Part shown: piece after piece, positions 15,839 through 62,870 of the stretch
Layout: every line of letters begins with the position of its first letter
Position numbering within the stretch: the stretch's first letter is position 1
Assembly (NCBI RefSeq): GCF_002072175.1
Contig: NZ_MVIV01000001.1
Span: forward strand, 186,001-250,000
Direction of reading: 5' to 3'
DNA: 64,000 nt
Origin: Actinomyces gaoshouyii
Lineage (GTDB): Bacteria > Actinomycetota > Actinomycetes > Actinomycetales > Actinomycetaceae
Program-made: the position numbers and the translations under genes
The notes under the pieces: generated by a model
Databases searched by the model: none
What the model was told of the DNA's origin: nothing
What the model saw: only the letters and a program-made list of their open reading frames with translations

Positions 15839-15908
15839 CGAGACCGGTCGAAAATAGGAGCGAGACCGGTCGGCCGACCGGTCTCGCTCCTATTTTCGAC
15901 CGGTCTCG
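15839..15908. repeat. ACCGGT repeat locus 1: perfect 70-bp palindrome
   Basis: Every base from 15839 to 15873 pairs with 15874 to 15908 without a loop. ACCGGT boxes start at 15843, 15865, 15877 and 15899, with spacings of 22, 12 and 22 bp. It lies between the converging ends of the methyltransferase and tsaD genes, where it could also serve as a two-way terminator. It belongs to a six-locus family in this window. Confidence 0.9.
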
Positions 15909-24073: not shown

Positions 24074-25417
24074 TCAGACTCTATCCTCCCAGTCAACTCC
24101 CAGATAGATTCGGGGCACGCGCGCGCCGAGACGGGTGACGATCTCATAGTTGATGGTGCCGCATACGGCGGCCCACTCGTCCACCGTCGGGATGCACGCC
24201 GGATCAGCGCCATCGCCCCACAGGACGGCGGTGTCACCGGCCCGGGCCGGGGGTTCGCCCCCGGCGGGGCCATCGGCCCGGGCCGCGGGCCCGAGGTCGA
24301 TGACCACCTGGTCCATGCACACGCGGCCCACGATCCTGGTGCGGATCGGGGGCGGGACGGCGGCGTCGGCACTGACTGATGAGCCGACCGGGGAGGGGAT
24401 CACCGTGACGGGGGCGCCGGAGGCCGCGCGCGGGATGCCGTCGGCGTAGCCGAGGGGGACCAGGCCGACCCAGCGGCTGGTGGGAGCGGTCCAAGTACCA
24501 CCGTAGGAGACCGCTTGACCTGCGGGGATGCGCTTGACGAGCGCCAGGGGGGCTTCCAGGCGCATGGTGGGGCGCAGCCCGAGCTCGGCGCTGGTGGCGA
24601 CGGCCGGGTCGGGTGAGAGCCCGTAGAGCCCGATGCCCGCGCGCACGAGGTCGAGGCGCGCGTCGGGGTGCCAGAGCAGCCCGCCAGTGGCCGCGAGATG
24701 GCGGACGACCGGCGCGAGCCCAACCGCGGTGACGCCGGCGTCGGCGGCTCGGAAGCGGGCCAGGTGGTCCTCGGTGGAACCGGAGTCGGGCTCATCGGCG
24801 CGCGAGAGGTGGGACCACAGGCCGACGACGGCGAGGCTCCCGGCGCGCTCGGCCCCGACGAGGGCGGAGGCCAGCGCGGGGAGCTCGCCGTCGGTCGTGC
24901 CGGCGCGGGACATGCCGGTATCGACCTTGAGGTGGACGCGGGCGGCGCGCCCCTCGGCGTCGGCGGCGGCCGCGATGGCGCGGGCCTGGTCGGGGGTGGA
25001 CACGGAGAGGTCGAGGTCTGCGGCGATCGCTGCGCGCAGGGGGGAGCCCGGGGCTGCGGCGTCCTCGGGGGTGAGGACGGGGGCGAGCCAGGTGAGGATG
25101 CGCGGCGCATCCGGCGTCGGCAGTAAGCGGAGAGCAGGGGCGGGGCGCGCGATGCCCGTGGCGTCGAGGAGGGAGCGCAGGTGGAGGGCCTCGGCGAGCT
25201 GGGCGACGCCGAGCCAGGCGGCGCCGGCGCCGAGGCAGGCGCGCGCGACGGGCTCCAGGCCGTGCCCATAGGCATCGGCTTTGACGACAGCCATCCAGGC
25301 AGTGCCGGCGGCCCGGGCGAGGACGGCGGCGTTGTGGGCGATGGCGCCGAGGTCGATAACGGCCCGGGAGGTGGTGGCCGGGATCGGCGGTGCAGTGGAA
25401 GGTGTTGTCGCGCTCAC
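24074..25417 (-). CDS. alr: Alanine racemase
   Basis: PLP enzyme producing D-alanine for peptidoglycan. The PLP lysine is Lys46 in VVKADAYGHG, and the catalytic tyrosine lies in AVSYGGTW. KVDTGMSRAG and the C-terminal MDQVVIDLG are also present. At 447 residues it is longer than the usual 370-390, with small Ala/Gly-rich inserts (for example near residue 345). The GTG at 25417 gives a normal N-terminus; the frame continues upstream through the repeat at 25468-25537, which is not expected to be translated as Alr. Confidence 0.95.
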   Translation of the reverse strand: MSATTPSTAPPIPATTSRAVIDLGAIAHNAAVLARAAGTAWMAVVKADAYGHGLEPVARACLGAGAAWLGVAQLAEALHLRSLLDATGIARPAPALRLLPTPDAPRILTWLAPVLTPEDAAAPGSPLRAAIAADLDLSVSTPDQARAIAAAADAEGRAARVHLKVDTGMSRAGTTDGELPALASALVGAERAGSLAVVGLWSHLSRADEPDSGSTEDHLARFRAADAGVTAVGLAPVVRHLAATGGLLWHPDARLDLVRAGIGLYGLSPDPAVATSAELGLRPTMRLEAPLALVKRIPAGQAVSYGGTWTAPTSRWVGLVPLGYADGIPRAASGAPVTVIPSPVGSSVSADAAVPPPIRTRIVGRVCMDQVVIDLGPAARADGPAGGEPPARAGDTAVLWGDGADPACIPTVDEWAAVCGTINYEIVTRLGARVPRIYLGVDWEDRV

Positions 25418-25467
25418 GCCGCGATTCTCCCACTGACCCGCCCCCGCCCCCTCCTTCTCCCTTTCAT

Positions 25468-25537
25468 CGAGACCGGTCGAAATTAGGAGCGAGACCGGTC
25501 TGCGGACCGGTCTCGCTCCTAATTTCGACCGGTCTCG
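25468..25537. repeat. ACCGGT repeat locus 2: 33-bp inverted repeat with 4-nt loop
   Basis: Arms 25468-25500 and 25505-25537 are perfectly complementary around TGCG. ACCGGT boxes start at 25472, 25494, 25506 and 25528 (spacings 22, 12, 22), as at locus 1, with one paired change (AATTAGG for AAATAGG in both arms). The compensating change in the two arms suggests the palindrome is maintained. It contains the stop codon of nnrD and lies 51 bp before the alr start. Confidence 0.9.
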
Positions 25538-27246
25538 GCGAGAGAGGCGGGCTGGTCGTGCGGGAGCGCCTGGGCGCGGAGGCGCTGGCGGGCGCAAGAG
25601 AGGTGATCGGCGACGTCGAGTGCCGCAATGGGGCGGCCCTCGTGCCCCCGCCCCAGCGCCTGCCCGCTGGCCAGGCGGCCGGCGTCGGCATGGAGGCGCA
25701 CGGACGCGGCGGCCGCGAGCGCGACCGCGTCCTCCAGGAGCAGGCCCGCCGCACCGATGCTGAGCTCACCGCGCTGGTGGCCCTCAGCGCGCTCGCGATC
25801 GGCGCGCACGGCCGCGAGCACCGCCCCGAGGGCGCCCGCGAGGACGTCCCCGCTGCCCGCAGTCGCCAACCAGCCCGGCCCGGCGTCGAGCGAGAGCACA
25901 GGCCCGCCACCGGGGCGCGCGATGAGCGCGGGCACGGCTTTGAGGATCACCGTTGCCCCGGTCGCCCCGGCGAGCCCGCGCGCGGCCGAAGCGGGGGCGG
26001 CCTCGACCTCCTCGCGCGTCGCCGGCAGCCCGAGGCCGCTGAGGAGAGCGGCGGCCTCGCCCGCATGAGGCGTGAGGACATGCTCTGGGCCGCAGATGAG
26101 CCCCTCGCCGAGAAGGTCGGGCAGGAGTGGGAGCGCCCCGGCGTCGATCACCGCCCACTGGCCCTCGCCGCTCCCCCGGCGCAGCGCGGCGCGCAAGGCG
26201 CCGCGCAGTTCCTCGGCCCGGGGCTGATCGGCGCGATGAGTGCCGGGACCGACGACGATCGCCTGGCACCGCCCAATCGCCGGGACCGCCTCGGGGCGGG
26301 AGGCGAGGACGAGGTCGACGGCACGCCGGGGCGCCTGGATCCGGGCCATGCCGACCCCTGCTCGGATGGCGCCGCTGACGGCGAGGACCGCGGCCCCGGG
26401 ATAGGCCTCACTGCCCGCATGGAGGCCGACGACGCCGCGCGTGTACTTGTGGTCGGTGGCGCCGGGGGCGCGCAGGAGCGCGGCGAGCAGCGCCGGATCG
26501 GGAACCGAGGCGAGAGGCTCGCTCCCAGTCGGCACCGGCAATCCGAGATCGACGACGTCCACGCGCCCGCTCAGGGGTGCCGCGGGCGGCAGGAGGTGGG
26601 CGCCGCGCGGGCAGGTGAAGGTGACGGTGCGATCGGCGGCGAGCACGGGCCCCGGCAGGGAGCCGTCGTCCACGCCGACGCCGGACGGGACGTCGACGGC
26701 GAGGACGCGGAACGCCCGTTCCCCGGGCGCGCCCGCGGCGATGAGGGGCGCGATGAGCGCGGCGGCGCGCGGGCGCAGGGGCCCGCTGGCGCCGATGCCG
26801 GTCAGTCCGTCGATGATGAGATCGGCCGCGGCGCCGCCGAGGACGGGTGAGGGGGCGGGAGCGTCCGCGACCGCGACCCCGGCGGCGCGGGCCTCGCTCA
26901 GCGCCGCCCCATGCGGGTGGTCGGTGGCCGGCCGGGCCTCCACGCGGGCGCCACGGCGGGCGAGGAGGGCCCCGGCGAGGAGGGCGTCGCCTCCGTTGCG
27001 CCCACCGCCGACCAGGACGAGGACTCGGCTGCCGGCGACCGAGCCGCGCAACTCGCGCAGCTCGGCGAGGCAGGCGCCGGCGACAGCGCGGGCGGCCCGC
27101 CGCATGTACTGGTCGGTGCCTGCGGTCAGCGGCGCCTCGGCCCGGGCGATGGCCCGGGCCGGGTAGGCGGCGCGGCGGGCGAGCGTGGGGGTCGCTGCAC
27201 ACTCGGCGGCTTCGAGGACGCGGGCGTCGCTCATGGCGGTGGGCAT
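25519..27246 (-). CDS. nnrD: Bifunctional NAD(P)H-hydrate epimerase/dehydratase
   Basis: Repairs hydrated NAD(P)H. An N-terminal epimerase (YjeF_N, about 1-210, with VGGGRNGGDALLAG) is fused to a C-terminal ADP/ATP-dependent dehydratase (about 225-545, with VGPGTH, LTPHAGEAAALL and TAGSGDVLAGALG). The last residues, AETGRN and the TAG stop, are read from the palindromic repeat at 25468-25537. The start is uncertain: GTG 27258 overlapping the glmS stop, ATG 27246 (chosen; GAGGGGGCGG just upstream) or ATG 27234. No acpS was found between glmS and this gene, where many actinobacteria have it. Confidence 0.9.
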   Translation of the reverse strand: MPTAMSDARVLEAAECAATPTLARRAAYPARAIARAEAPLTAGTDQYMRRAARAVAGACLAELRELRGSVAGSRVLVLVGGGRNGGDALLAGALLARRGARVEARPATDHPHGAALSEARAAGVAVADAPAPSPVLGGAAADLIIDGLTGIGASGPLRPRAAALIAPLIAAGAPGERAFRVLAVDVPSGVGVDDGSLPGPVLAADRTVTFTCPRGAHLLPPAAPLSGRVDVVDLGLPVPTGSEPLASVPDPALLAALLRAPGATDHKYTRGVVGLHAGSEAYPGAAVLAVSGAIRAGVGMARIQAPRRAVDLVLASRPEAVPAIGRCQAIVVGPGTHRADQPRAEELRGALRAALRRGSGEGQWAVIDAGALPLLPDLLGEGLICGPEHVLTPHAGEAAALLSGLGLPATREEVEAAPASAARGLAGATGATVILKAVPALIARPGGGPVLSLDAGPGWLATAGSGDVLAGALGAVLAAVRADRERAEGHQRGELSIGAAGLLLEDAVALAAAASVRLHADAGRLASGQALGRGHEGRPIAALDVADHLSCARQRLRAQALPHDQPASLAETGRN

Positions 27247-27254
27247 CCGCCCCC

Positions 27255-29180
27255 TCACTCCACGGTGACGGACTTGGCCAGGTTCCTGGGCTGGTCGATG
27301 TCCAGTCCCTTGGCGCCCGCGAGCGCGGCGGCGAAGATCTGCAGCGGGACGACGGTGAGCAGCGGCGCCATGAGGGTGGGAGCGGCGGGGATGCGGATGA
27401 TGTGCTCGGCGAAGGCGTCAACGGCGTCGTCCCCCTCCTCGGCCACCACGATGGTGCGCGCGCCGCGAGCGCGGATCTCCTGGACGTTGGACAGGACCTT
27501 GTCGTGCAGGATGGGGCGGCGGGGGGTGGGCACGATGACGAAGACCGGCAGCCCCTCCTCCACGAGCGCGATGGGCCCGTGCTTGAGCTCTCCCGCCGCG
27601 AAGCCCTCGGCATGGACGTAGGCGAGCTCCTTGAGCTTGAGCGCGCCCTCGAGCGCCACCGGGAATCCCACATGGCGGCCCAGGAACAGGAAGGAGGAGC
27701 GATCCGCGAGCTCGGCGCCCAGCGCCCGCACGACGCTCTGCTGCTCATCGAGGATCCACTGGACCTTATCGGGCATCTCGCCGAGCTTGGCGAGGTAGTC
27801 GGCAACCTCCTCGGGCCACTTGTTGCCGCGCAGCTGGGCGAGGTAGAGGCCCAGCAGGTAGCAGGCGGTGATCTGGGCGAGGAAGGCCTTGGTCGAGGCG
27901 ACGGCGACCTCCGGGCCGGCGTGCGTGTAGAGCACGGCGTCAGCCTCGCGGGCAATGGTCGAGCCGTAGGCGTTGACGATGGCCAGGACCTTGCTGCCCT
28001 GCTCGCGGGCGTGGCGGACGGCCTGGATGGTGTCCATGGTCTCCCCGGACTGGGAGATCGCCACGGTGAGGGTCTTCTCGCTCACGACGGCGTCGCGGTA
28101 GCGGAACTCGTGGGCGAGCTCGATCTCCACCGGCACGCGGCACCAGTGCTCGATGGCGTACTTCGCGACGTGCCCGGCGTAGGCGGCGGTGCCGCAGGCG
28201 ACGACGATGATCTTGTCGACGCTGCGCAGGACGGCGGGGTCGATGCGCATCTCGTCGAGCTGGATCTCGCCGCGCTCGTCGACGCGCCCCAGCAGGGTGT
28301 CTGCGACGGCGGCGGGCTGATCGTGGATCTCCTTGTCCATGAAGGTCTCGTAGCCGCCCTTGACGGCCGCTGAGGCATCCCAGGAGACCTCCCAACCCTT
28401 GGGCTCCACGATGCAGCCGTCCTTGTCCCACACGGTGACCGAGTCGGGGCGCAGGAGGAGGATCTGGTCATCGCCGACCTCGGCGGCGCGGGAGGTGAAG
28501 GCCACGAAGGCGGCGACGTCGGAGCCCAGGAAGTTCTCGCCGTCGCCCAGGCCGATGACCAGCGGGCTGGAGCGGCGGGCGGCGACGATCGCCTCGGGCG
28601 CCAGGGAGGTGACGGCCAGGAGCGCGAAGGCGCCCTCGAGGCGCTCGGTGACAGCGCGCATGGACTCCACGAGGACCTGCGCGGGATCGGCCGAGGGATC
28701 GGCGGCGGTCGCCTCGGCCAGGCGGGCGGTGAAGTCCATGTCGAGGATGTGGGCGGCGATCTCGGTGTCCGTGTCGGACAGGAGCGCGCGGCCCGCCTCC
28801 TCGACCTCGGCGCGCAGGGCGCGGAAGTTCTCGATGATGCCGTTGTGGACGACGGCGATACTGCCGGCGCGGTGCGGGTGGGCGTTCTCCGTCGTCGGCC
28901 CGCCATGGGTGGCCCAGCGGGTGTGGCCGATGCCGGCGGTGGCCGGAGCCGGCGGCTCGGCCGCGATGGCGGCGCGGAGGTTCTCGAGCTTGCCCGCCGC
29001 CTTGGCGACCTGCAGCCCTGACGGGCCGACGAGGGCGACGCCGGCGGAGTCGTAGCCGCGGTACTCCAGGCGGCCCAGGCCGTCGAGGAGGACGCAGAGG
29101 GTGCGCCCCTCAACCTCGGGGGTCGCGGCGGAGGAGATGACGGGGGCGAGGGGGCGGACATGCCCGACGATTCCACACAT
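27255..29180 (-). CDS. glmS: Glutamine--fructose-6-phosphate aminotransferase (isomerizing)
   Basis: Makes glucosamine-6-phosphate, the entry to UDP-GlcNAc and the cell wall. The 641-residue protein starts MCGIVGHV with nucleophilic Cys2 of the glutaminase domain (1-260). It carries RWATHG, GIIENFRALR, and two SIS domains (VACGTAAYAGHVAKY; ISQSGETMDTIQA; LGRHVGFPVALEGALKLKE), ending in the typical DQPRNLAKSVTVE. No glmS ribozyme was recognised in the 103 bp upstream. Confidence 0.97.
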   Translation of the reverse strand: MCGIVGHVRPLAPVISSAATPEVEGRTLCVLLDGLGRLEYRGYDSAGVALVGPSGLQVAKAAGKLENLRAAIAAEPPAPATAGIGHTRWATHGGPTTENAHPHRAGSIAVVHNGIIENFRALRAEVEEAGRALLSDTDTEIAAHILDMDFTARLAEATAADPSADPAQVLVESMRAVTERLEGAFALLAVTSLAPEAIVAARRSSPLVIGLGDGENFLGSDVAAFVAFTSRAAEVGDDQILLLRPDSVTVWDKDGCIVEPKGWEVSWDASAAVKGGYETFMDKEIHDQPAAVADTLLGRVDERGEIQLDEMRIDPAVLRSVDKIIVVACGTAAYAGHVAKYAIEHWCRVPVEIELAHEFRYRDAVVSEKTLTVAISQSGETMDTIQAVRHAREQGSKVLAIVNAYGSTIAREADAVLYTHAGPEVAVASTKAFLAQITACYLLGLYLAQLRGNKWPEEVADYLAKLGEMPDKVQWILDEQQSVVRALGAELADRSSFLFLGRHVGFPVALEGALKLKELAYVHAEGFAAGELKHGPIALVEEGLPVFVIVPTPRRPILHDKVLSNVQEIRARGARTIVVAEEGDDAVDAFAEHIIRIPAAPTLMAPLLTVVPLQIFAAALAGAKGLDIDQPRNLAKSVTVE

Positions 29181-36315: not shown

Positions 36316-37326
36316 TCACCGAGACCGGTCTCGATCGTGATATCGACCGGTCTCGGCACAGGGGGCAGGGAGGGTTCGCAGGGCCCTGGCGCGCTCGGCC
36401 CGGTCGGCCAGCTCGTCATCCGCGGGGTAGCTCACCCGCTCCAGAGTGAGGCCATGGGCGGGGGCGACCGGCGCCGCGGCGTCCCGGCTCGCGCTCAGGA
36501 GGATCCGCGCGGGCCAGTCCTCATCCCTGCGCCCCTGGCCCACCGCGAGGCAGGCGCCCACGAGAGAGCGCACCATCGAGTGGCAGAAGGCGTCGGCGAC
36601 GACGTCGAGCACCACGAGGCCCTCATCCGCCCCCTCGCGGCCGGTGGCGCCACCGGGGACGCGCGACCATTCCAGGCGCTTGAGCGTACGGATCGTCGTG
36701 GCACCCTCGCGGGGCTTGCAGTAGCCGAGGAAGTCGTGCTCGCCGAGCAATGGCGCGGCGGCGCGGCGCATGGCCCCGACGTCGAGGGCCTCGGGGATCC
36801 ACAGCACGCTCCCCCGCCGCCCCGGATCCCGCGACCCGGCAGCGGGCCCGCCGTCGGCGATCCGGTAGCGGTAGGCGCGCTCGGTGGCGGAGAAGCGCGC
36901 ATCGAAGCCCTCGGGAGCCTCGCGAGCCCCGTTCACGACGACATCGCTCGTCCCCCGCGGCGCGGTCCCCGCGCCCCCGCTGGCAGCGCTCTCGCGCGCT
37001 TCGCGGGCCAGGACACCGGCCAGCCGGGTCAGCAGCGCCTGCCCGGGAGCCCGGTCCGAGCGACCGGGGAGCGACCGCCAGGCCTCCTGCGCGACATCGA
37101 AGTGCGCGACCTGGGCCGCGGCGTGAACGCCCGCGTCCGTCCGCCCCGCGACGGTGAGCCGCACGGGAACGCGCAGCACCGTGCCGAGCGCCTCGGTGAT
37201 CACCCCCTCCACGGTGCGCAGGCCCGGCTGCGCGGCCCAGCCCGCGAATCCCGCTCCGTCATAGGCCAGATCCAGCCGCACGCGCACCAGCGGATCGTCT
37301 CCGTTCGGCTCCTTGGAGTCCTCCAT
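36316..37326 (-). CDS. truA: tRNA pseudouridine synthase A
   Basis: Isomerises uridines 38-40 in tRNA anticodon arms. The 336-residue protein has the catalytic Asp in GRTDAGVHA near residue 52, [14 protein letters not shown] at the N-terminus, the [10 protein letters not shown] motif and [16 protein letters not shown]. Two Ala/Gly-rich inserts (about 85-120 and 150-175) make it longer than the usual 250-290. The last residues ([13 protein letters not shown]) and stop are encoded by the ACCGGT repeat at 36319-36356. In most relatives truA follows rplQ; here a surface-protein gene and a kinase gene intervene. Confidence 0.93.
36319..36356. repeat. ACCGGT repeat locus 3, inside the 3' end of truA
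   Basis: Perfect 12-bp inverted arms (36319-36330 with 36345-36356). Boxes start at 36324 and 36346, spaced 22 bp. The spacer (TCGATCGTGATATCG type) resembles the first spacer at locus 6. It overlaps the last 13 codons of truA. Confidence 0.85.
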
Positions 37327-38408: not shown

Positions 38409-40019
38409 TCAGGCGCGGCGTCCGCGGCGGACCAGGAAGAGACCGCCACCGACGACGGCGCCCGCGATGAGCACCGGAACCACGATACTGGCACCGGTCT
38501 TGGCCAGCGAGGGCTTGGAGGTGGGCTGGCTGGTGAACCGGGCCGGGGCAGCGGGGGCCGGAGCCGTGGGGCTCTTGGGAGCCTGGGCGCCGGGCTGCTG
38601 CAGAGCCGGAGCGGTCGGCATCGGGGCTTGAGCGGCGGCCTCGGTGGTGGCCGGGTCAGTCGGCATCGGGGCCTGGGCGGGGGCCTCGGTGGTGGCCGGG
38701 TCAGTCGGCATCGGGGCCGGGGCGGGGGCCGCGGTGGTGGCCGGGTCAGTCGGCATCGGGGCCTGGGCGGGGGCCTCGGTGGTGGCCGGGTCAGTCGGCA
38801 TCGGGGCCTGGGCGGGGGCCTCGGTGGTGGCCGGGTCAGTCGGCATCGGGGCCGTGGTCTCGGGCGCCGACGCGGTGGTCTCCGGAGCGGGGGCCGTCGT
38901 CTCGGGCGCCGACGGCGTCGGAGCGGGGGTGGTCTCCCCGGGAGCGGACGGCGTGGCCGACGGCGTCGTGGTCTCCGGGGCGGAAGGAGGCGCGGTCGGC
39001 GGGGTGTTGCTGTCGTTCGGCGTGGTGGCCGTGGGGGTCGGCGCCGGGGTGGCGTTCTTGCCGCCCTGGGCGTTGCCGGAGCCGGCCTCGGTGGCGGTGA
39101 TGCCGCTGCGCGAGAAGGTCTGGCCGTTCACCGTGGCGGTGTTGGCCTGAGCGGCCTTCGTGGGCTCAGTCGTGGTGTAGAAGCGGACGCGGCACACGGA
39201 GTCGGCGGACGGAGCGTCGAACTCGATCTGCTCCTGGGGCCAGCCGGGAGCGACCTTGACATCGGCGACGCCCTGGCCCTCCTGCCAGGAACCGGTGGTG
39301 CACAGGACGGAGTTGGCGATGTAGTTGGCACCCGGGTCCTTGACGACCCAGTGGGTGTTCTTGGCGCCGCCGGTGTTCTGGGCGCGCACCTCCCACATGA
39401 AGACGTACTTGCCCTGTTCGTTGATGCCGTTGAACCAGCCGGACTTGAAGGGGTTGGCCTCAGGGTAGTTGGGCTTGACACCGTCGCAGCCGGTGTCACA
39501 GGTGCCATCGCCGTCGGAGTCGCCGAAGACGATGGGCACGGTGGTCGGACCGACCTTGACGGTGCTCCGCTTGAGGTCGATGCCCTTGTTGTTGATCTGG
39601 GCCTGGGCGGTGAGCGTGCCGTCGGTGAGCCTGTCCCACTTCTCCGCGCCGGCGGTCAGGGTGCAGGTCATGTCCTGAGAGCCGACGGTGAACGTGCAGT
39701 TGCCGACGTCGGAGCCGTCCTGGTCGAGGAGGTCGAAGGCGAGCGAGCCGTGCCACTCCATGCCCTCGCCGAGCTTGACGGTGAAGGAGTCTCCGGTCTT
39801 GGGGGCGTCGGCCTCCCACTTGGCCTGGAGGCTCACCTTGTTCCAGGCCTCAACGGCGACGCCGTTGACCGGGCGCTGGCGGGCCTCGGAGGTGACCTTG
39901 ACGTCGGTCACCTTGATGTTGTTGGAATCGGCGGCCTGAGCCTGTGTGCTCACGGCGGCGGGAACGAAGGCGCCTGCGGCAACGAGCGCGCCGGCGGCCA
40001 GAGCGGAAGACCGTCTCAT
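38409..40019 (-). CDS. Secreted surface protein with Pro/Thr-rich repeats and LAxTG sorting signal
   Basis: Cell-wall protein of unknown binding role. The 536-residue precursor has a signal peptide (1-29, ending STQAQA), then a globular region to about residue 320 with three Cys pairs and a D-x-D-x-D calcium-type loop (DSDGDGTCD). A Pro/Thr/Ala stalk (325-490) holds a 15-residue repeat, MPTDPATTEAPAQAP. The C-terminus is LAKTG (505-509), a hydrophobic segment and RRGRRA. LAxTG is the known recognition motif of actinobacterial class E sortases. ATG 40019 is chosen over ATG 40031 because AGGAGA lies just before it. Confidence 0.88.
   Translation of the reverse strand: MRRSSALAAGALVAAGAFVPAAVSTQAQAADSNNIKVTDVKVTSEARQRPVNGVAVEAWNKVSLQAKWEADAPKTGDSFTVKLGEGMEWHGSLAFDLLDQDGSDVGNCTFTVGSQDMTCTLTAGAEKWDRLTDGTLTAQAQINNKGIDLKRSTVKVGPTTVPIVFGDSDGDGTCDTGCDGVKPNYPEANPFKSGWFNGINEQGKYVFMWEVRAQNTGGAKNTHWVVKDPGANYIANSVLCTTGSWQEGQGVADVKVAPGWPQEQIEFDAPSADSVCRVRFYTTTEPTKAAQANTATVNGQTFSRSGITATEAGSGNAQGGKNATPAPTPTATTPNDSNTPPTAPPSAPETTTPSATPSAPGETTPAPTPSAPETTAPAPETTASAPETTAPMPTDPATTEAPAQAPMPTDPATTEAPAQAPMPTDPATTAAPAPAPMPTDPATTEAPAQAPMPTDPATTEAAAQAPMPTAPALQQPGAQAPKSPTAPAPAAPARFTSQPTSKPSLAKTGASIVVPVLIAGAVVGGGLFLVRRGRRA
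38641..38853. repeat. Five 45-bp tandem repeats in the surface-protein stalk
   Basis: Units start at 38641, 38686, 38731, 38776 and 38821 and are nearly identical; the third differs mainly in its end (GCCGGGGCGGGGGCCG) and the last is partial. They encode the 15-residue Pro/Thr unit of the stalk. Copy number is likely to vary between strains by slipped replication. Confidence 0.92.
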
Positions 40020-46663: not shown

Positions 46664-46860
46664 GCGGTCTCCTGTGAGCTCGGGGGATCGGCGTCGATTG
46701 GCCCTGCGGGCGCGACGGCGGACGCGCAGGCGCGCGCCGGGCTCACACTACCCCGGAGCAGGGGTCCCCTTCGAGGCCGTGACCCTATCGGAAGGCAAGG
46801 CGTGCATCACGCGCCGGGCTCCCGCCTCCCCCGGTCAGCTTCTCCCCCTCCCCTCACCCA

Positions 46861-46890
46861 GACCGGTCGAAAACAGCATCGAGACCGGTC
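46861..46890. repeat. ACCGGT repeat locus 4 between rplO and secY
   Basis: Two boxes, starting at 46862 and 46884, spaced 22 bp, in the same orientation with a GAAAACAGCATCGAG spacer. This half-type copy lacks the inverted partner seen at loci 1 and 2. It lies in the 380-bp gap 46664-47043, which holds no gene. Confidence 0.8.
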
Positions 46891-50989: not shown

Positions 50990-51361
50990 TCAGATCACCT
51001 CCATGGCGAGCGAGACGATGCGCATGAACTTCTTCTCGCGAAGCTCACGGCCGACGGGACCGAAGATGCGCGTGCCGCGCGGCTCCCCATCGTTGTTCTT
51101 GAGGATGACGGCCGCGTTCTCATCGAAGCGGATGTACGAGCCGTCCGGACGACGGCGCTCCTTGCGGGTGCGGACGACGACCGCCTTGACGACGTCGCCC
51201 TTCTTGACGCTGCCTCCCGGGACTGCGTCCTTGACAGTGGCGACGATCGTGTCGCCGATGCCCGCATAGCGCCGTCCCGAGCCGCCGAGCACACGGATGC
51301 ACAGGATCTCCTTGGCACCGGTGTTGTCGGCGACCTTCAGTCGCGACTCCTGCTGGATCAT
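50990..51361 (-). CDS. rplN: 50S ribosomal protein L14
   Basis: Intersubunit-bridge protein, about 123 residues ([54 protein letters not shown]). It is now the first gene of its transcript: rpsQ, which normally precedes it, is 1.6 kb away beyond an opposite-strand gene. The 363-bp region 51362-51724 upstream must hold its promoter; it contains a leader hairpin and an ACCGGT repeat. Confidence 0.97.
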
Positions 51362-51480
51362 AGGGTGTTCTCCTTCGTCGAGCCGGTTCTCGGGTCCCCC
51401 CGAGCCTTGCCGAACGTTCTTGATGTTCCTGCGCGCTGCTCCCCCGGCCCGGGGGCAGGAGGAGTCCACGAGGCGTGGGT

Positions 51481-51521
51481 CCCATCAGACACAGGCGCAG
51501 AGGCGCGGGGTCTCTGATGGG
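51481..51521 (-). promoter_or_regulatory. Stem-loop in the rplN upstream region
   Basis: Perfect 9-bp stem CCCATCAGA/TCTGATGGG (51481-51489 with 51513-51521) around a 23-nt loop, about 120 bp before rplN. It could be a leader structure for the detached spc transcript or a terminator. A TAGGCT hexamer (minus strand) near 51555 is a weak -10 candidate upstream of it. Confidence 0.4.
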
Positions 51522-51630
51522 CGCGCCGAGGGCGCACGCAACTGTCACAGCCTAGTGCAGCGCCGAAGGCCCCGGATACCACAGGCCCCCTCCCACCCTG
51601 TGCCCTTCCTCACCAGCCTCCCCCTCCCAC

Positions 51631-51664
51631 CGAGACCGGTCGAAAACAGCAACGAGACCGGTCG
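51631..51664. repeat. ACCGGT repeat locus 5, left flank of the inserted gene
   Basis: Two boxes starting at 51635 and 51657, 22 bp apart, with the same GAAAACAGCA-type spacer as locus 4. It lies between rplN and the divergent inserted gene. Confidence 0.82.
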
Positions 51665-51724
51665 GTTTTCCACAGATTTCCCGACCCTCTTTCATGAGCG
51701 AACCTCAGCGGCGACGCTTGAGAG

Positions 51725-52822
51725 ATGCACACCACCGATGGCTCCCAGCGCATTCCCCATGCCCACGTCGGCGCACGGAGTTCCCAGCCGGATCGTGAGA
51801 CCGGCGCCATCCAGGCGATACGTCGCGGCACCGCGATCCGCGCCGACCCGGATGAGCCGCACTGGCGCACATGCTCCCGGGCGAGGGACGCGATCATCGA
51901 GTCCTGTGGCGCCGAGGGGCTCGACGGCGTCGTCTGCCAGGAGGCCGCCGCGCGCATCCACGGGGCGAGGGCGATGTCCGAGACTCGGACGATCCACCTC
52001 GTGACCTCCTGGAAGCCCGGCGGTCTGCGACGTCGGCCGAGCCCGCGCAACCCGGGCAGGGTCTCATCCCGCGACGCCTCGCGAGGCGAGCGCCGTCGTC
52101 TCCTCGAGGCCAGGCCGATCGTGCGTCACCATATGCCGCTGGACGACCGCGATGTCGTCGATCTGAGCGGGCTGCGCGTCACCGGCCTGGAGCGTACGAT
52201 CCTCGATTGCGCGCGCTTCCTGCAGCCCGATCGGGCGCTCGCCGTCGTCGATTCCCTCTTCGCCGTAGCGGTAGGCGCGGACGAGCACCCGTGGGATCAC
52301 CGGCACCGGATCGAGACGGCGTGCGCGGAACTGCGACGTCGGCTCCTCTCGCGGTTGGAGGAGTGGACCGGCCAGCGGGGCTACCGGCGCGCTCAGGCGG
52401 TTGTGCTCGCCGCAACCGCGATGAGCCAGTCGGTATGGGAGTCCGAGGCCCGGCGCCTCTGTCTGGCGTCAGGCCTCACTCCCCCACAGGTGCAGATACC
52501 CGTACGCGGGGCCGACGGCCGCGTGTACTTCGCGGATCTCGGCTGGCTGCTCGTTCGCCTCCTCCTGGAGATCGACGGGGAGGTGAAGCTCGCGGAGGAT
52601 CCCGACGGCGAGCTGCGGCGCCGGGCGGTTCGGGAGGGGGCGATCCGCGACGTCGGGTTCGACATGCTGCGTCTGAGTCCCGAGGATCTGAGGGACACGC
52701 GCGCCGCGGTGCGCCGCATCTGGGACGCGCTGCCGCCGTCGGCACGCGATGCTCCTCCGATCACGGCGCTGCTGACCACTCATGAGCGCGAATCCGGAGG
52801 CCTGCGCCCCGGTGTGCGATAG
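51725..52822 (+). CDS. AbiEi-like/DUF559-like protein inserted in the ribosomal operon
   Basis: Function unknown. The 365-residue protein resembles a large actinobacterial group with an N-terminal helical part (VCQEAAARIHGAR), a central segment like AbiEi antitoxins (VDLSGLRVTGLERTILDCAR, residues about 140-160) and a C-terminal part reminiscent of PD-(D/E)XK nucleases: VYFADLGWLLVRLLLEIDGEVK supplies Asp, Glu-x-Asp and Lys in order near residues 258-278. No toxin partner is adjacent. It is on the opposite strand to all neighbouring ribosomal genes, and repeats flank it. The ATG at 51725 has only a weak ribosome-binding site (GAGAG). Confidence 0.65.
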   Translation: MHTTDGSQRIPHAHVGARSSQPDRETGAIQAIRRGTAIRADPDEPHWRTCSRARDAIIESCGAEGLDGVVCQEAAARIHGARAMSETRTIHLVTSWKPGGLRRRPSPRNPGRVSSRDASRGERRRLLEARPIVRHHMPLDDRDVVDLSGLRVTGLERTILDCARFLQPDRALAVVDSLFAVAVGADEHPWDHRHRIETACAELRRRLLSRLEEWTGQRGYRRAQAVVLAATAMSQSVWESEARRLCLASGLTPPQVQIPVRGADGRVYFADLGWLLVRLLLEIDGEVKLAEDPDGELRRRAVREGAIRDVGFDMLRLSPEDLRDTRAAVRRIWDALPPSARDAPPITALLTTHERESGGLRPGVR

Positions 52823-52838
52823 GCGGCCATCCCGCCGA

Positions 52839-52892
52839 ACCGGTCTCGATCATGATTTCGACCGGTCTCGCTCCTATTTTCGACCGGTCTCG
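52839..52892. repeat. ACCGGT repeat locus 6, right flank of the inserted gene
   Basis: Three same-direction boxes starting at 52839, 52861 and 52883, with exact 22-bp steps. The two spacers belong to different subtypes (CTCGATCATGATTTCG and CTCGCTCCTATTTTCG types). It lies between the inserted gene and the rpsQ terminator. Confidence 0.88.
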
Positions 52893-52920
52893 GAGGGGAA
52901 GGAGGGAGGGGAGAATGACG

Positions 52921-52964
52921 ACGGCGCCGCGGCGGCCCGCTGGGTGCGGGCGCCGCGGCGCCGT
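52921..52964 (-). terminator. Hairpin terminator after rpsQ
   Basis: Perfect 13-bp outer stem (52921-52933 with 52952-52964) plus an inner 6-bp stem (52935-52940 with 52946-52951), 23 bp past the rpsQ stop. It ends the S10-part transcript, consistent with a real operon break. Confidence 0.82.
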
Positions 52965-52987
52965 GATGCCGTTGGATCAGCGGGAGG

Positions 52988-53275
52988 TCACTTGGCCTTC
53001 TCGATGATCTCCACGAGGCGCCAGTGCTTGGTGGCGCTCAGGGGACGGGTCTCCATGATCGAGACGAGGTCGCCAACGGCGGCCGTGTTGTTCTCGTCGT
53101 GGGCCTTGACCTTCTTGGACCGACGGATGACCTTGCCGTACAGGGAGTGCTTGTAGCGCTCCTCGACGAGGACGACGATGGTCTTGTCCATCTTGTCGGA
53201 GACGACGTAGCCGCGGCGGACCTTGCGCTGGTTGCGCTCGGGGGCGGCCTCAGTACTGGTGGTCTGCTCGCTCAC
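52988..53275 (-). CDS. rpsQ: 30S ribosomal protein S17
   Basis: Small-subunit assembly protein with an OB fold. It has 95 residues with [20 protein letters not shown] and [20 protein letters not shown]. The GTG overlaps the rpmC stop by 4 bp. It is the last gene of the S10 transcript because a terminator follows. Confidence 0.97.
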
Positions 53276-58531: not shown

Positions 58532-58607
58532 CCTGAGAGCAGAGCCAGGACTGTGAGACCTACCACCGCCCCACGCGCTCGGGCGTGTCGCGCCGGGCCG
58601 AGGGGAG

Positions 58608-61600: not shown

Positions 61601-62870
61601 TGAGGGATTCGATCGTCGGCCACGCGTCAGCGCCGTAGGAGCCCGCCTCGGAGACGTTGTCGAATTCGGCGGTCGGGGGTACTGCTCCCGCCTTTCCCGG
61701 CACGCGCGCGGATTCATCAGCTTGCACGCTCTTGGAGAAGGTCACGGGCCTCACCTGTTCCAGGGAGCCGTAGAGGCACCCATAGGACGTGGCGCGCTCC
61801 TTCGTCACGAAGGCCTCGCTTAGAGCGTTCGGATCGACGGCGGGATCACATCGGCTGGAATTGCCGATGTTGGTGAATCCCCAGAGCTTGAGCTGGTACT
61901 TCACGCCATTGGGGGCTTCCCACATCTCAGTGGAGCGCGTGGCGGTGATGCGCAGATTGTCGTCGGAACACTGTCGATTGTTGACATCCTTGTTCCCGCG
62001 CTCAAGATCATTACCGTCAGTGGCGAAGTAGTAGTAATATCCCTCCTGACGATATTTTCCGCCCAGTTGACCACCACTGTGATAAGCTTGACGCAACTGC
62101 CGACCAGCGTAGTCGTAGTAGGTTTTTTGATAATAGGTGCCATCACCGAGCCTGACGAGGCGACCGGCGGCATCCCAGCCCCATTCCGTGGGGATGGCGC
62201 TGGGGGAGCCGAACGCTCCCCCATTATGGCCGATGACCATCGAGCCGGTTGAATCGAGACTCGCCGTGCAATTATTGTACGTGTCCTCCTCGGTCCAGGG
62301 GAAGACCTGATTGATGGCGTAACCGCCACCGTGGACGTTCCTGGCGAGCCGGACCCTGATGGAACCCGCGTAGGTCGTCCCCTTGTAAGACGAGACGAAC
62401 ACAGGATTGTTGTCGTGGCGCATGGTGCCGACGAGGAAGATCTGACCCACATTCTTCTCCCCGCCCCCGGCGGGCCTGAAGGACATGGACGTCTGGCCGG
62501 TACGGTCCCTAACGGGATCAGTGCCGTAGGAGCCCGGGCAGCGGCTCCCCGACAACATACCGTAGCTGATCCCGGCCCACTGCCCACTGCTGACACTGAC
62601 CGGTCCCGTGGTTCCGGGGCCGCCCCCGGGATAGTAGTGGCCGCAGTCGGGGTCGTACCCACCCTGCTGGACGCCGGAGATCTCGGCCTCCGTGTCACCG
62701 ATATCGACGGTGAAATTGGAGTCCGCACCTCTTGCCATCGAAGCACTGACAAGGCCAATGGCTCCGATTGCAGTAGCGACCACGAGGGTGATTATCAGCC
62801 ACATAGCGCCCGGCCGGAATGAGTGAGAAGAACGATAATGATGCCCGGGGAGCGCACGAGGAGGTAACAT
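58608..62870 (-). CDS. Large sortase-anchored surface adhesin with prealbumin-like and DUF11-type repeats
   Basis: Probable pilin-like or adhesive wall protein of 1420 residues. A signal anchor lies at about 24-45. An N-terminal Tyr/Gly/Asn-rich domain with Cys pairs spans about 50-360, and SpaA-like segments (RLTLVNVVDSGTAAPTEWTL) lie at about 530-720. Repeated Ig-like/DUF11-type domains cover about 750-1270 (VTKTFDRVVKSP, FSASKSAVEVTRD, RFSKVVATRPG), with a SpaA-type domain at about 1275-1375 (SITLIKTGSQGNLDGAAFDV). The end is LPLSG (1382-1386), a hydrophobic segment and RRCRRAVG; LPLSG departs from LPxTG. The ATG at 62870 lacks a ribosome-binding site; ATG 62804 is an alternative. The adjacent class C sortase supports wall attachment. 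Confidence 0.88.
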   Translation of the reverse strand: MLPPRALPGHHYRSSHSFRPGAMWLIITLVVATAIGAIGLVSASMARGADSNFTVDIGDTEAEISGVQQGGYDPDCGHYYPGGGPGTTGPVSVSSGQWAGISYGMLSGSRCPGSYGTDPVRDRTGQTSMSFRPAGGGEKNVGQIFLVGTMRHDNNPVFVSSYKGTTYAGSIRVRLARNVHGGGYAINQVFPWTEEDTYNNCTASLDSTGSMVIGHNGGAFGSPSAIPTEWGWDAAGRLVRLGDGTYYQKTYYDYAGRQLRQAYHSGGQLGGKYRQEGYYYYFATDGNDLERGNKDVNNRQCSDDNLRITATRSTEMWEAPNGVKYQLKLWGFTNIGNSSRCDPAVDPNALSEAFVTKERATSYGCLYGSLEQVRPVTFSKSVQADESARVPGKAGAVPPTAEFDNVSEAGSYGADAWPTIESLTPTDWGEAGKVESTQNYTLLAPNDKAAVREREMTPAAVIAADGTVTSSGWRLNGVTCTYGDDSKRLELSGAAGGYLDEKQFDPATRTLSLDQSKLARLRTETDIHCAWSNEYVMAPGRLTLVNVVDSGTAAPTEWTLAATPKSTGLYGQRTITGVSGDQAVTAQSTSAGTYKLSAAGGPLGYTQNGQWSCAAADGSSIPVAAGEELALPEGAEVTCTVRHKTTTTPVSAVKSVAGASDGAALTDYALNYTCAPGADGAAKAEGTVRVGSDGASIALPAAQAGATCVITEQKLDDDGLKAASPDHRGRFSWGEPSFAVAVGKGGASTQVATTAVPATDSVGPGVSFTVPDSTDGDVTIAVTNTVVPHAGVTKTFDRVVKSPTVVGGRDTFDQTYTVVVANPSTAQALAYSVDDTAVAPSGSAVNSVTVTGGDPAHPARVTGPTWNVKDVDLAAGANHTYTVTVNVSTPDSGLTGLQNYQGAQCVDGAPMIRNTATVTTKGDAQGVSASACGDVPANPSFSASKSAVEVTRDAGEGTFTASYEVTVTNTSHVDAAIAQDVRDQLGLPASAKVDRVEVREGGALTRTIPGAEAAMNGGFVLAEAGSGDPLVKVPDGATTGGGTRVLGVRVVFSVDPSYPGYAAEDYRCGGTRADGQPSGLVNTVIMQGDRTTGDDTACLSADSTLRFSKVVATRPGAGSTFDVSYTISVVNEGALPGDTGQVKDAPVFPAGLVINGVTVAKDSEAPRAVAADASGVYPVSDGEAVASGQTLTWTVSINVSIDPSAAGYTDDALACAADGDGVLQPGRGLFNRVVPEAGKDKSTTKNHDTACADVDPNAGRRSITLIKTGSQGNLDGAAFDVYPVDPSSPGAVPLAGGVAPTGAKGEFTVSALPVNREYWLVETRAPAGHQLLANPVRIKVTATGIEVLNARDLGGSTATVSASAGQDLVNTLTIADIQAGTLPLSGGRGIAPHILAGSVLVGIAGALIAFSSRRCRRAVG

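Follow-up and report, generated by a model that had tools for sequence, protein, structure and literature searches.

The window, the whole 64,000-nt stretch of the Actinomyces gaoshouyii genome analyzed here, carries copies of a short palindromic repeat at several gene ends and on both sides of one nuclease-like gene. A perfect hairpin separates nnrD (NAD(P)H-hydrate epimerase/dehydratase; 25519-27246, minus strand, with a possible alternative upstream GTG start at 27258) from the downstream alanine racemase gene alr (24074-25417, minus strand). Its left arm (25468-25500, minus strand) comprises two units of 22-nt period, and its right arm (25505-25537, plus strand), read on the minus strand, encodes the final ETGRN and stop of nnrD, whose TAG occupies 25519-25521. 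Another perfect hairpin (15839-15908, strand not assigned) lies between tsaD and a convergent THUMP-like gene. The copy at 36320-36355 (strand not assigned) sits at the 3' end of truA (36316-37326, minus strand) and encodes its tail, and a two-unit copy lies between secY and rplO (46858-46890, minus strand). Between rplN and rpsQ, and on the opposite strand to both, we find a candidate repeat-associated nuclease of 365 amino acids, AbiEi-like and of DUF559 type (51725-52822, plus strand). It is preceded by a left array (51631-51663, minus strand) with the motif TTTTCCACAG just inside it (51666-51675, plus strand, upstream of the gene), and followed by a three-unit right array (52838-52892, plus strand), so that 51631-52892 consists of inverted arrays around a gene.

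The repeat is built from a 10-bp core, ACCGGTCTCG, recurring at 22-nt spacing, with a spacer that differs between copies. Copies usually have two or three units, often arranged as two inverted arms and often as a perfect 33-bp hairpin. The two-unit pattern, with up to 3 mismatches, matches the 2,262,740-base genome 114 times (55 forward, 59 reverse) and its reversed control 0 times; in the window, an 11-mer with up to one mismatch matches 23 times against 5.3 expected. We surveyed 59 genome stretches around the matches listed among the 114, which were chosen for carrying the repeat, and called genes with a simple codon-usage script rather than a standard annotator. This yielded 64 repeat sites, five of them in the window. 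Seven of the 59 stretches (L143, L146, L150, L188, L194, L195 and L199) and the window site at 46858 lack an array under the script's rule and fall outside the 64. Scanned against Rfam at gathering thresholds, the window matches no family. Of the 40 contig ends of the A. gaoshouyii assembly, seven (on C2, C5, C7, C14 and C18, and at both ends of C19) coincide with repeat copies or adjoin them, as though the assembly had been broken there by the repeats.

Repeat copies cluster just after stop codons. Fifty-nine of the 64 sites lie wholly between called genes. Genes border 58 of the sites on both sides, in convergent orientation at 27, tandem at 23 and divergent at 8. Among the 218 gaps without a repeat in these stretches, only 22 are convergent (Fisher p = 3.5e-9), and 12 of 125 when gaps of at least 60 nt are considered. 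For arms whose CGAG end faces a stop codon, the edge is 1-45 nt past the stop in 43 of 58 cases, overlaps the called gene in 6 and is more distant in 9; an overlap of -77 at L177 may reflect a miscalled gene. The opposite arm orientation is looser (24 values, 5-191 nt from the stop). Of 43 single arrays, 25 turn the CGAG end toward the nearer stop, 11 are reversed, and 7 have no neighboring 3' end. This placement could mean that the repeats are selected transcription terminators or mRNA 3'-end stabilizers, with nuclease genes lying between them by chance. The RNA of the two perfect window hairpins, folding at about -70 kcal/mol (z-scores of -12 and -14), points the same way. However, no T-tract terminator was found at 25000-26000, and RNA from the array of three units at 52838 folds no more stably than shuffled sequence. 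A terminator role also leaves unexplained why the repeats flanking a nuclease gene match each other, why paralogues within one genome have different repeats and why the variable spacers are homogenized, and we consider it unlikely.

At the sites we examined, five genes run into the repeat at their 3' ends, all in one frame. As the first-pass annotation had observed, nnrD ends in ...PASLAETGRN* inside a repeat arm (GCC GAG ACC GGT CGA AAT TAG), and truA uses the same arm in this ETGR frame. The truA frame then continues past the arm through the spacer and the second core, ending at a TGA directly after that core. The other three ends are IPETGRE* (L153) and, where two convergent genes meet in one hairpin, LAETGRK* and SAETGRK* (L159). 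The annotation had taken the TAG to be part of the conserved spacer. That holds for arms with AAAATAG, AATTAG or similar spacers but not for others: the arms ATATCACGAT, AAAACAGCAA and AAATCATGAT have no stop in the ETGR frame, and the repeat therefore does not always include one.

Comparison with related species suggests different histories for the two tails. We examined 30 nnrD and 30 truA loci, drawn from 48 genomes with a match for each gene, and found no repeat-free orthologue with the AETGR tail. At the nnrD site of genome G033, A. denticolens (G004) and A. timonensis (G067), the repeat is present and the frame stops ahead of it; in G033 the protein ends GPRR*, 18 nt before the repeat. 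Immediately ahead of CCCGCC is a codon that reads TAA in A. denticolens and TAG in A. timonensis. In A. gaoshouyii nnrD it is CAG, and translation therefore enters the repeat arm. By parsimony, the nnrD tail would reflect a later stop loss into a resident repeat, making the repeat older than the tail. For truA, the G033 and A. denticolens proteins end ...AETG*, with tail and stop within the repeat, the A. gaoshouyii frame runs on, and A. timonensis, which has no repeat there, ends LPAEEAGH*; the truA tail is therefore repeat-derived. It is absent from the other 26 of the 30 aligned truA loci.

The repeat is thus dispersed, mobile-looking and located at gene 3' ends, as first proposed, and it does encode the truA tail; its having brought the stop to nnrD, by contrast, is not supported. 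The original proposal, in which insertion of the repeat into the 3' ends of coding sequences supplies an in-frame stop as a functional feature, accords with the tail and stop inside the repeat in truA of G033 and A. denticolens and with the five A. gaoshouyii ends. It is nevertheless highly improbable given the apparently later stop loss in nnrD, the restriction of the ETGR-frame stop to some spacers and the 43 of 58 arm edges that lie past an intact stop. Since most arms are wholly downstream of intact stops, the provision of stops by the repeat looks incidental.

Inverted pairs fall into compact and long-loop forms. Twenty-one of the 64 sites are inverted pairs, and 13 of these are compact, with a 6-nt loop. 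The two arms of a compact hairpin differ by 0.08 nt on average, compared with 1.35 nt between sites; in 12 of the 13 they are identical and in one there is a single mismatch. Where the spacer of one arm is changed, the other arm shows the change too. In the remaining eight pairs the loop is longer and the two arms are 3-7 nt apart in sequence. ATCCACAG is found beside the left arm in each of the three pairs whose loops measure 57-59 nt, and in the other five the TCCACAG motif is absent from the part of the loop inspected. At truA, G033 and A. denticolens have a longer pair with the motif and A. gaoshouyii a shortened pair, which is apparently a deletion derivative of the form still present in those two genomes.

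The nuclease-like gene belongs to a family with DUF559, MTES_1575 and AbiEi affinities. The window protein has no Pfam match (E up to 1) and no NCBIfam match. We aligned it with homologs in 28 rows (28 of 30 loci, L085 and L101 being left out), and Pfam at E up to 1 finds DUF559 in 17 of these 28 members (best 4.4e-6) and MTES_1575 in 11 (best 3.6e-8), the matches being partly weak. PADLOC AbiEi models match at least 27 of the 28 at E up to 0.01, with the match to the window protein (3.2e-6) confined to residues 120-176. D271, E282 and K288 are conserved in the alignment, and D284 nearly always, in a D-x10-E-x-D-G-x-x-K layout that is PD-(D/E)XK-like. A PDB profile search returned four weak matches, the best to a 'Mobile intron protein' (3r3p, E 0.071). 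As a lead only, that match points to EDxHD/Vsr-like homing endonucleases; unlike those enzymes, the window protein is associated with no intron or intein, and the recognition-like sequence is the dispersed repeat itself. A single-sequence structure prediction reached a pLDDT of 39.6 and was discarded. Judged by these profiles and residues, the family is DUF559/MTES_1575/AbiEi-like, with a predicted C-terminal DUF559/Vsr-type PD-(D/E)XK-like motif, and is not a RAYT transposase. Because the window protein alone reaches no Pfam family, its membership is taken from the alignment. We infer its nuclease activity from the family, because it matches neither Pfam nor NCBIfam, the family matches are partly weak, and the fold prediction failed.

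The dN/dS of the gene is 0.22-0.29 among four species, indicating purifying selection. With its arrays, the gene splits the ribosomal-protein operon at rplN/rpsQ (50990-53275) by about 1.6 kb on the opposite strand in four species. The idea of a recent move into the operon was dropped because the gene is present there in all four; since it has stayed in this place, it may have been domesticated.

A conserved motif precedes the gene in most homologous loci. Of 77 loci, 59 have TCCACAG upstream of the nuclease gene and 1 has it downstream, compared with 0 of 60 control loci, and five permuted motifs occur in 0-3 of the 77. With start codons estimated from the alignment, the 80 occurrences of TCCACAG include 50 that precede the start by 47-59 or 83-87 nt, often near -57 or -86. 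The motif, which we take to resemble a DnaA box, may be an operator, a DnaA-like box or part of a mobile unit. An operator would suit the possibility that the nuclease is an AbiEi-like conflict or defense protein and that the repeats are its operators, decoys or self-tags rather than mobile DNA. The AbiEi matches across the family are in keeping with this, and AbiEi antitoxins of the AbiE type IV toxin-antitoxin systems are described as binding inverted repeats in their own promoters (PMC7319586). Inverted-repeat binding by the AbiEi-like region would be plausible. Unlike AbiE, however, the gene has a nuclease-like domain and no adjacent AbiEii-type toxin partner, its neighbors being rplN and rpsQ, and its repeats are dispersed genome-wide. 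Operators do not account for copies downstream of the gene, for single-arm forms or for dispersed copies that number in the tens to hundreds in a genome, and a purely defensive role seems improbable to us.

Inverted repeats flank nuclease genes across the order. The protein has a match in 43 of 49 Actinomyces genomes, and its 28-row alignment in 137 of 149 genomes of the order. We chose loci by protein similarity alone, taking the best 30 of each search; L111, L112 and L113 duplicate L081, L099 and L104 and were excluded, leaving 57 distinct loci. For each locus, we compared the 500 nt on either side of the gene, with nuclease start codons estimated from the alignment, and recorded the longest inverted repeat that the two flanks share exactly, with a threshold of at least 13 nt. 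This threshold is reached at 21 of the 30 Actinomyces best matches and 19 of the 27 loci from other genera (40 of 57 together), and at 14 of 20 further paralogues, or 54 of 77 overall. None of 60 control nnrD/truA loci reaches it, the control maximum being 12 nt. The remaining 23 nuclease loci have no flanking inverted repeat of 13 nt, and at L102, L105 and L107 no two-sided repeat is evident by eye. Many nuclease loci outside Actinomyces have one hairpin on each side. At L104 (72 nt) and L202 (61 nt), the two flanks of the nuclease gene are identical in inverted register, which suggests recent copying or conversion between them. The 70-nt inverted flanks of L137, from the same order, include a further hairpin, CCCCCAGCCTTCGGCCGGGAGGTGCCCCCA, with the look of an element nested inside another.

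Inverted arrays, long-loop forms resembling internal deletions and dispersed copies are also features of MITEs, and the repeats might be MITE-like relics of an ordinary transposon with an unrecognized transposase and the nuclease as cargo. Yet a cargo gene would not predict one protein family lying between the ends in many genera with unrelated repeats. We found no target duplication, and we consider the MITE explanation very unlikely, the transposase search having covered PF01797 only. That family had no match in 14 Actinomyces genomes (0/14), compared with matches in 5 of 14 control genomes, and a RAYT was accordingly rejected as the partner of the repeat. A DNA uptake sequence was also considered but seems unlikely, given the homogenized spacers and a total of known sites of only about 70.

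The repeat type goes with the lineage of the nuclease rather than with the genome. We compared 50 Actinomyces nuclease loci, counting a pair as sharing its repeat if two or more repeat 11-mers are in common. Sharing is found in 0 of 51 paralogue pairs from the same genome. Between genomes, it is found in 25 of 38 pairs at 65% protein identity or more, in 5 of 160 at 45-65% and in 2 of 976 below 45%. Close orthologues share flanks partly by common descent, and the informative half of the test is the lack of sharing within genomes.

Sites shared between species carry species-specific units. In A. timonensis the same gene occupies the same place between rplN and rpsQ, flanked by arrays of a different unit, CGAAACCGGGCGAACAGCACGG. 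The tsaD, nnrD/alr, rplO and nuclease sites are all occupied in this species as well, with A. timonensis-type units, and by eye its hairpins beside tsaD and nnrD match both ends of its nuclease element with the gene missing. Four shared sites with species-specific units point to concerted evolution. In G033, the tsaD site lacks the repeat and the gene next to it is a different one. We observed no repeat movement, and no target-site duplication can be defined from the one clear empty site (truA in A. timonensis), where the flanks are too diverged. A pair of A. timonensis arrays about 600 nt apart also lies at 62072-62750 of the joined stretch L075-L078 of G067, enclosing a sequence in which the codon-usage script called no gene. 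The window has no repeat at the corresponding place (near 58592), and this is a possible presence/absence site.

Nuclease flanks predict the dispersed repeats of their own genomes. Four patterns taken from nuclease flanks were each scanned in 49 Actinomyces genomes, with reversed controls all at 0. The CCGAGNTCGGTNGA type has 66, 64, 83 and 60 copies in G030, G005, G063 and G066, whose nucleases have that flank; elsewhere there are 24 in G064, 20 in G014 and 6 in G012, and 0 in 42 genomes. The CGAAACCGGCGGAA type has 113 copies in G015, 27 in G022, 2 in G017 and 0 in 46 genomes, and the GAGAACGGTACTT type has 292 in G017 and 0 in 48. The CGAGATCGGT-TTCCG type reaches 671 copies in G061, 368 in G059 and 281 in G028, with single copies in two other genomes and 0 in 44. 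All four flank types tested therefore predict dispersed repeats in their source genomes. The A. gaoshouyii type, scanned in 59 genomes with up to 2 mismatches, has 122 copies in its own genome, 210 in G033 and 171 in A. denticolens; six others have 47, 22, 4, 1, 1 and 1, and 50 have 0. One motif taken from two flanks outside Actinomyces, those of L136 and L137, is TCGTGATCATGCANNTC; it has 19 copies in G051, 17 in G154, 10 in G120, 9 in G112 and 4 in G037, a single copy in each of five further genomes and 0 in 139.

Four genomes (G022, G064, G014 and G012) have a repeat type without any nuclease found to have that flank. Copies are fewer without a nuclease of the cognate flank (27 in G022, where 2 copies match exactly the pattern drawn from G015; 24 in G064; 20 in G014; 6 in G012, an incomplete genome; and 2 in G017) than with one (60-671). 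Such a difference would be expected if the copies depend on the enzyme for their maintenance, although few genomes are involved. In G066, the nuclease gene is split between frames, yet 60 copies are present.

We propose that the repeat and the nuclease-like gene at 51725-52822 form a REP-like two-part system in which the nuclease mobilizes the dispersed copies, a reading to which we assign a probability of about 0.62. The flanking arrangement, its recurrence across homologs, the dispersed copies matching the flanks, the co-divergence, the clustering after stops and the concerted change at shared sites are direct observations; mobilization is what we infer from them. One part would be the nuclease-like gene, with its AbiEi-like region, between inverted arrays of 22-nt-period units. 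The other would be the dispersed, non-autonomous copies: single arrays, long-loop pairs (some with TCCACAG beside the left arm) and compact perfect hairpins. The nuclease may recognize the units, perhaps through the AbiEi-like region, and nick or break DNA at copies or at gene 3' ends. Repair would then copy the palindrome in, so that the family both spreads and becomes homogenized. The nnrD and truA tails would be by-products of copies sitting against stop codons.

This proposed system resembles REP/REPIN-RAYT systems (REPtrons) in organization, with a different enzyme. REPtrons are described as combining high-copy extragenic palindromes, hairpin doublets, a gene flanked by its cognate repeats and co-divergence of the two; their partner enzymes are RAYT-type tyrosine transposases, which are thought to drive REP copying (PMC3116915, PMC8266576, PMC3733652). 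The CGTC class of REPs is said to 'apparently lack a dedicated transposase' (PMC3733652). Like these, the Actinomyces repeat is short, extragenic, palindromic and present in high copy number; its inverted doublets form hairpins with near-identical arms when compact, as in REPINs; and its partner gene is flanked by its own repeat family. Unlike the HUH Y1 transposase of REPtrons, however, that partner is an AbiEi/DUF559 Vsr-type protein. Outer arm ends read CGAG rather than the GTAG of GTAG-class REPs, and the units form tandem arrays of 20-23-nt period, unlike REPs. We do not file the system under REP-RAYT because the enzyme that defines that family was not found in the 14 genomes searched. 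By analogy, it may work as REP-RAYT does, with a nuclease processing the repeat DNA.

The resemblance to DUF559/MTES_1575 Vsr-fold nucleases lies in the family's profile matches and its D-x10-E-x-D-G-x-x-K layout, the window protein itself having no Pfam match. The repeat association sets the Actinomyces family apart from what we found on such nucleases: titles and abstract openings of open-licence papers contain no link between DUF559/MTES_1575/AbiEi nucleases and dispersed palindromes. The MTES_1575 domain is named there as part of a large HEPN fusion protein (PMC3710099). More tentatively, and at somewhat less than even odds, DUF559/MTES_1575/AbiEi-type nucleases across the order may be dedicated repeat propagators, each maintaining its private palindromes at gene 3' ends by break-induced copying and not by transposition. 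If so, the palindromes would form a class of selfish prokaryotic repeats with no relation to REP-RAYT, and a large family of uncharacterized nucleases would acquire a function. Should a nuclease family unrelated to RAYTs do the work of REP enzymes, short palindromic repeats would have arisen as enzyme-linked populations at least twice. A widespread uncharacterized domain would then have a role open to testing, and for many of its members a DNA partner can already be predicted. This would also provide a candidate mechanism for the genome-wide concerted evolution of intergenic loci of roughly 70 bp.

A separate repeat is present at 38560-38902 of the window, where six in-register copies of a 45-nt tandem repeat lie inside a minus-strand gene (38409-39953).
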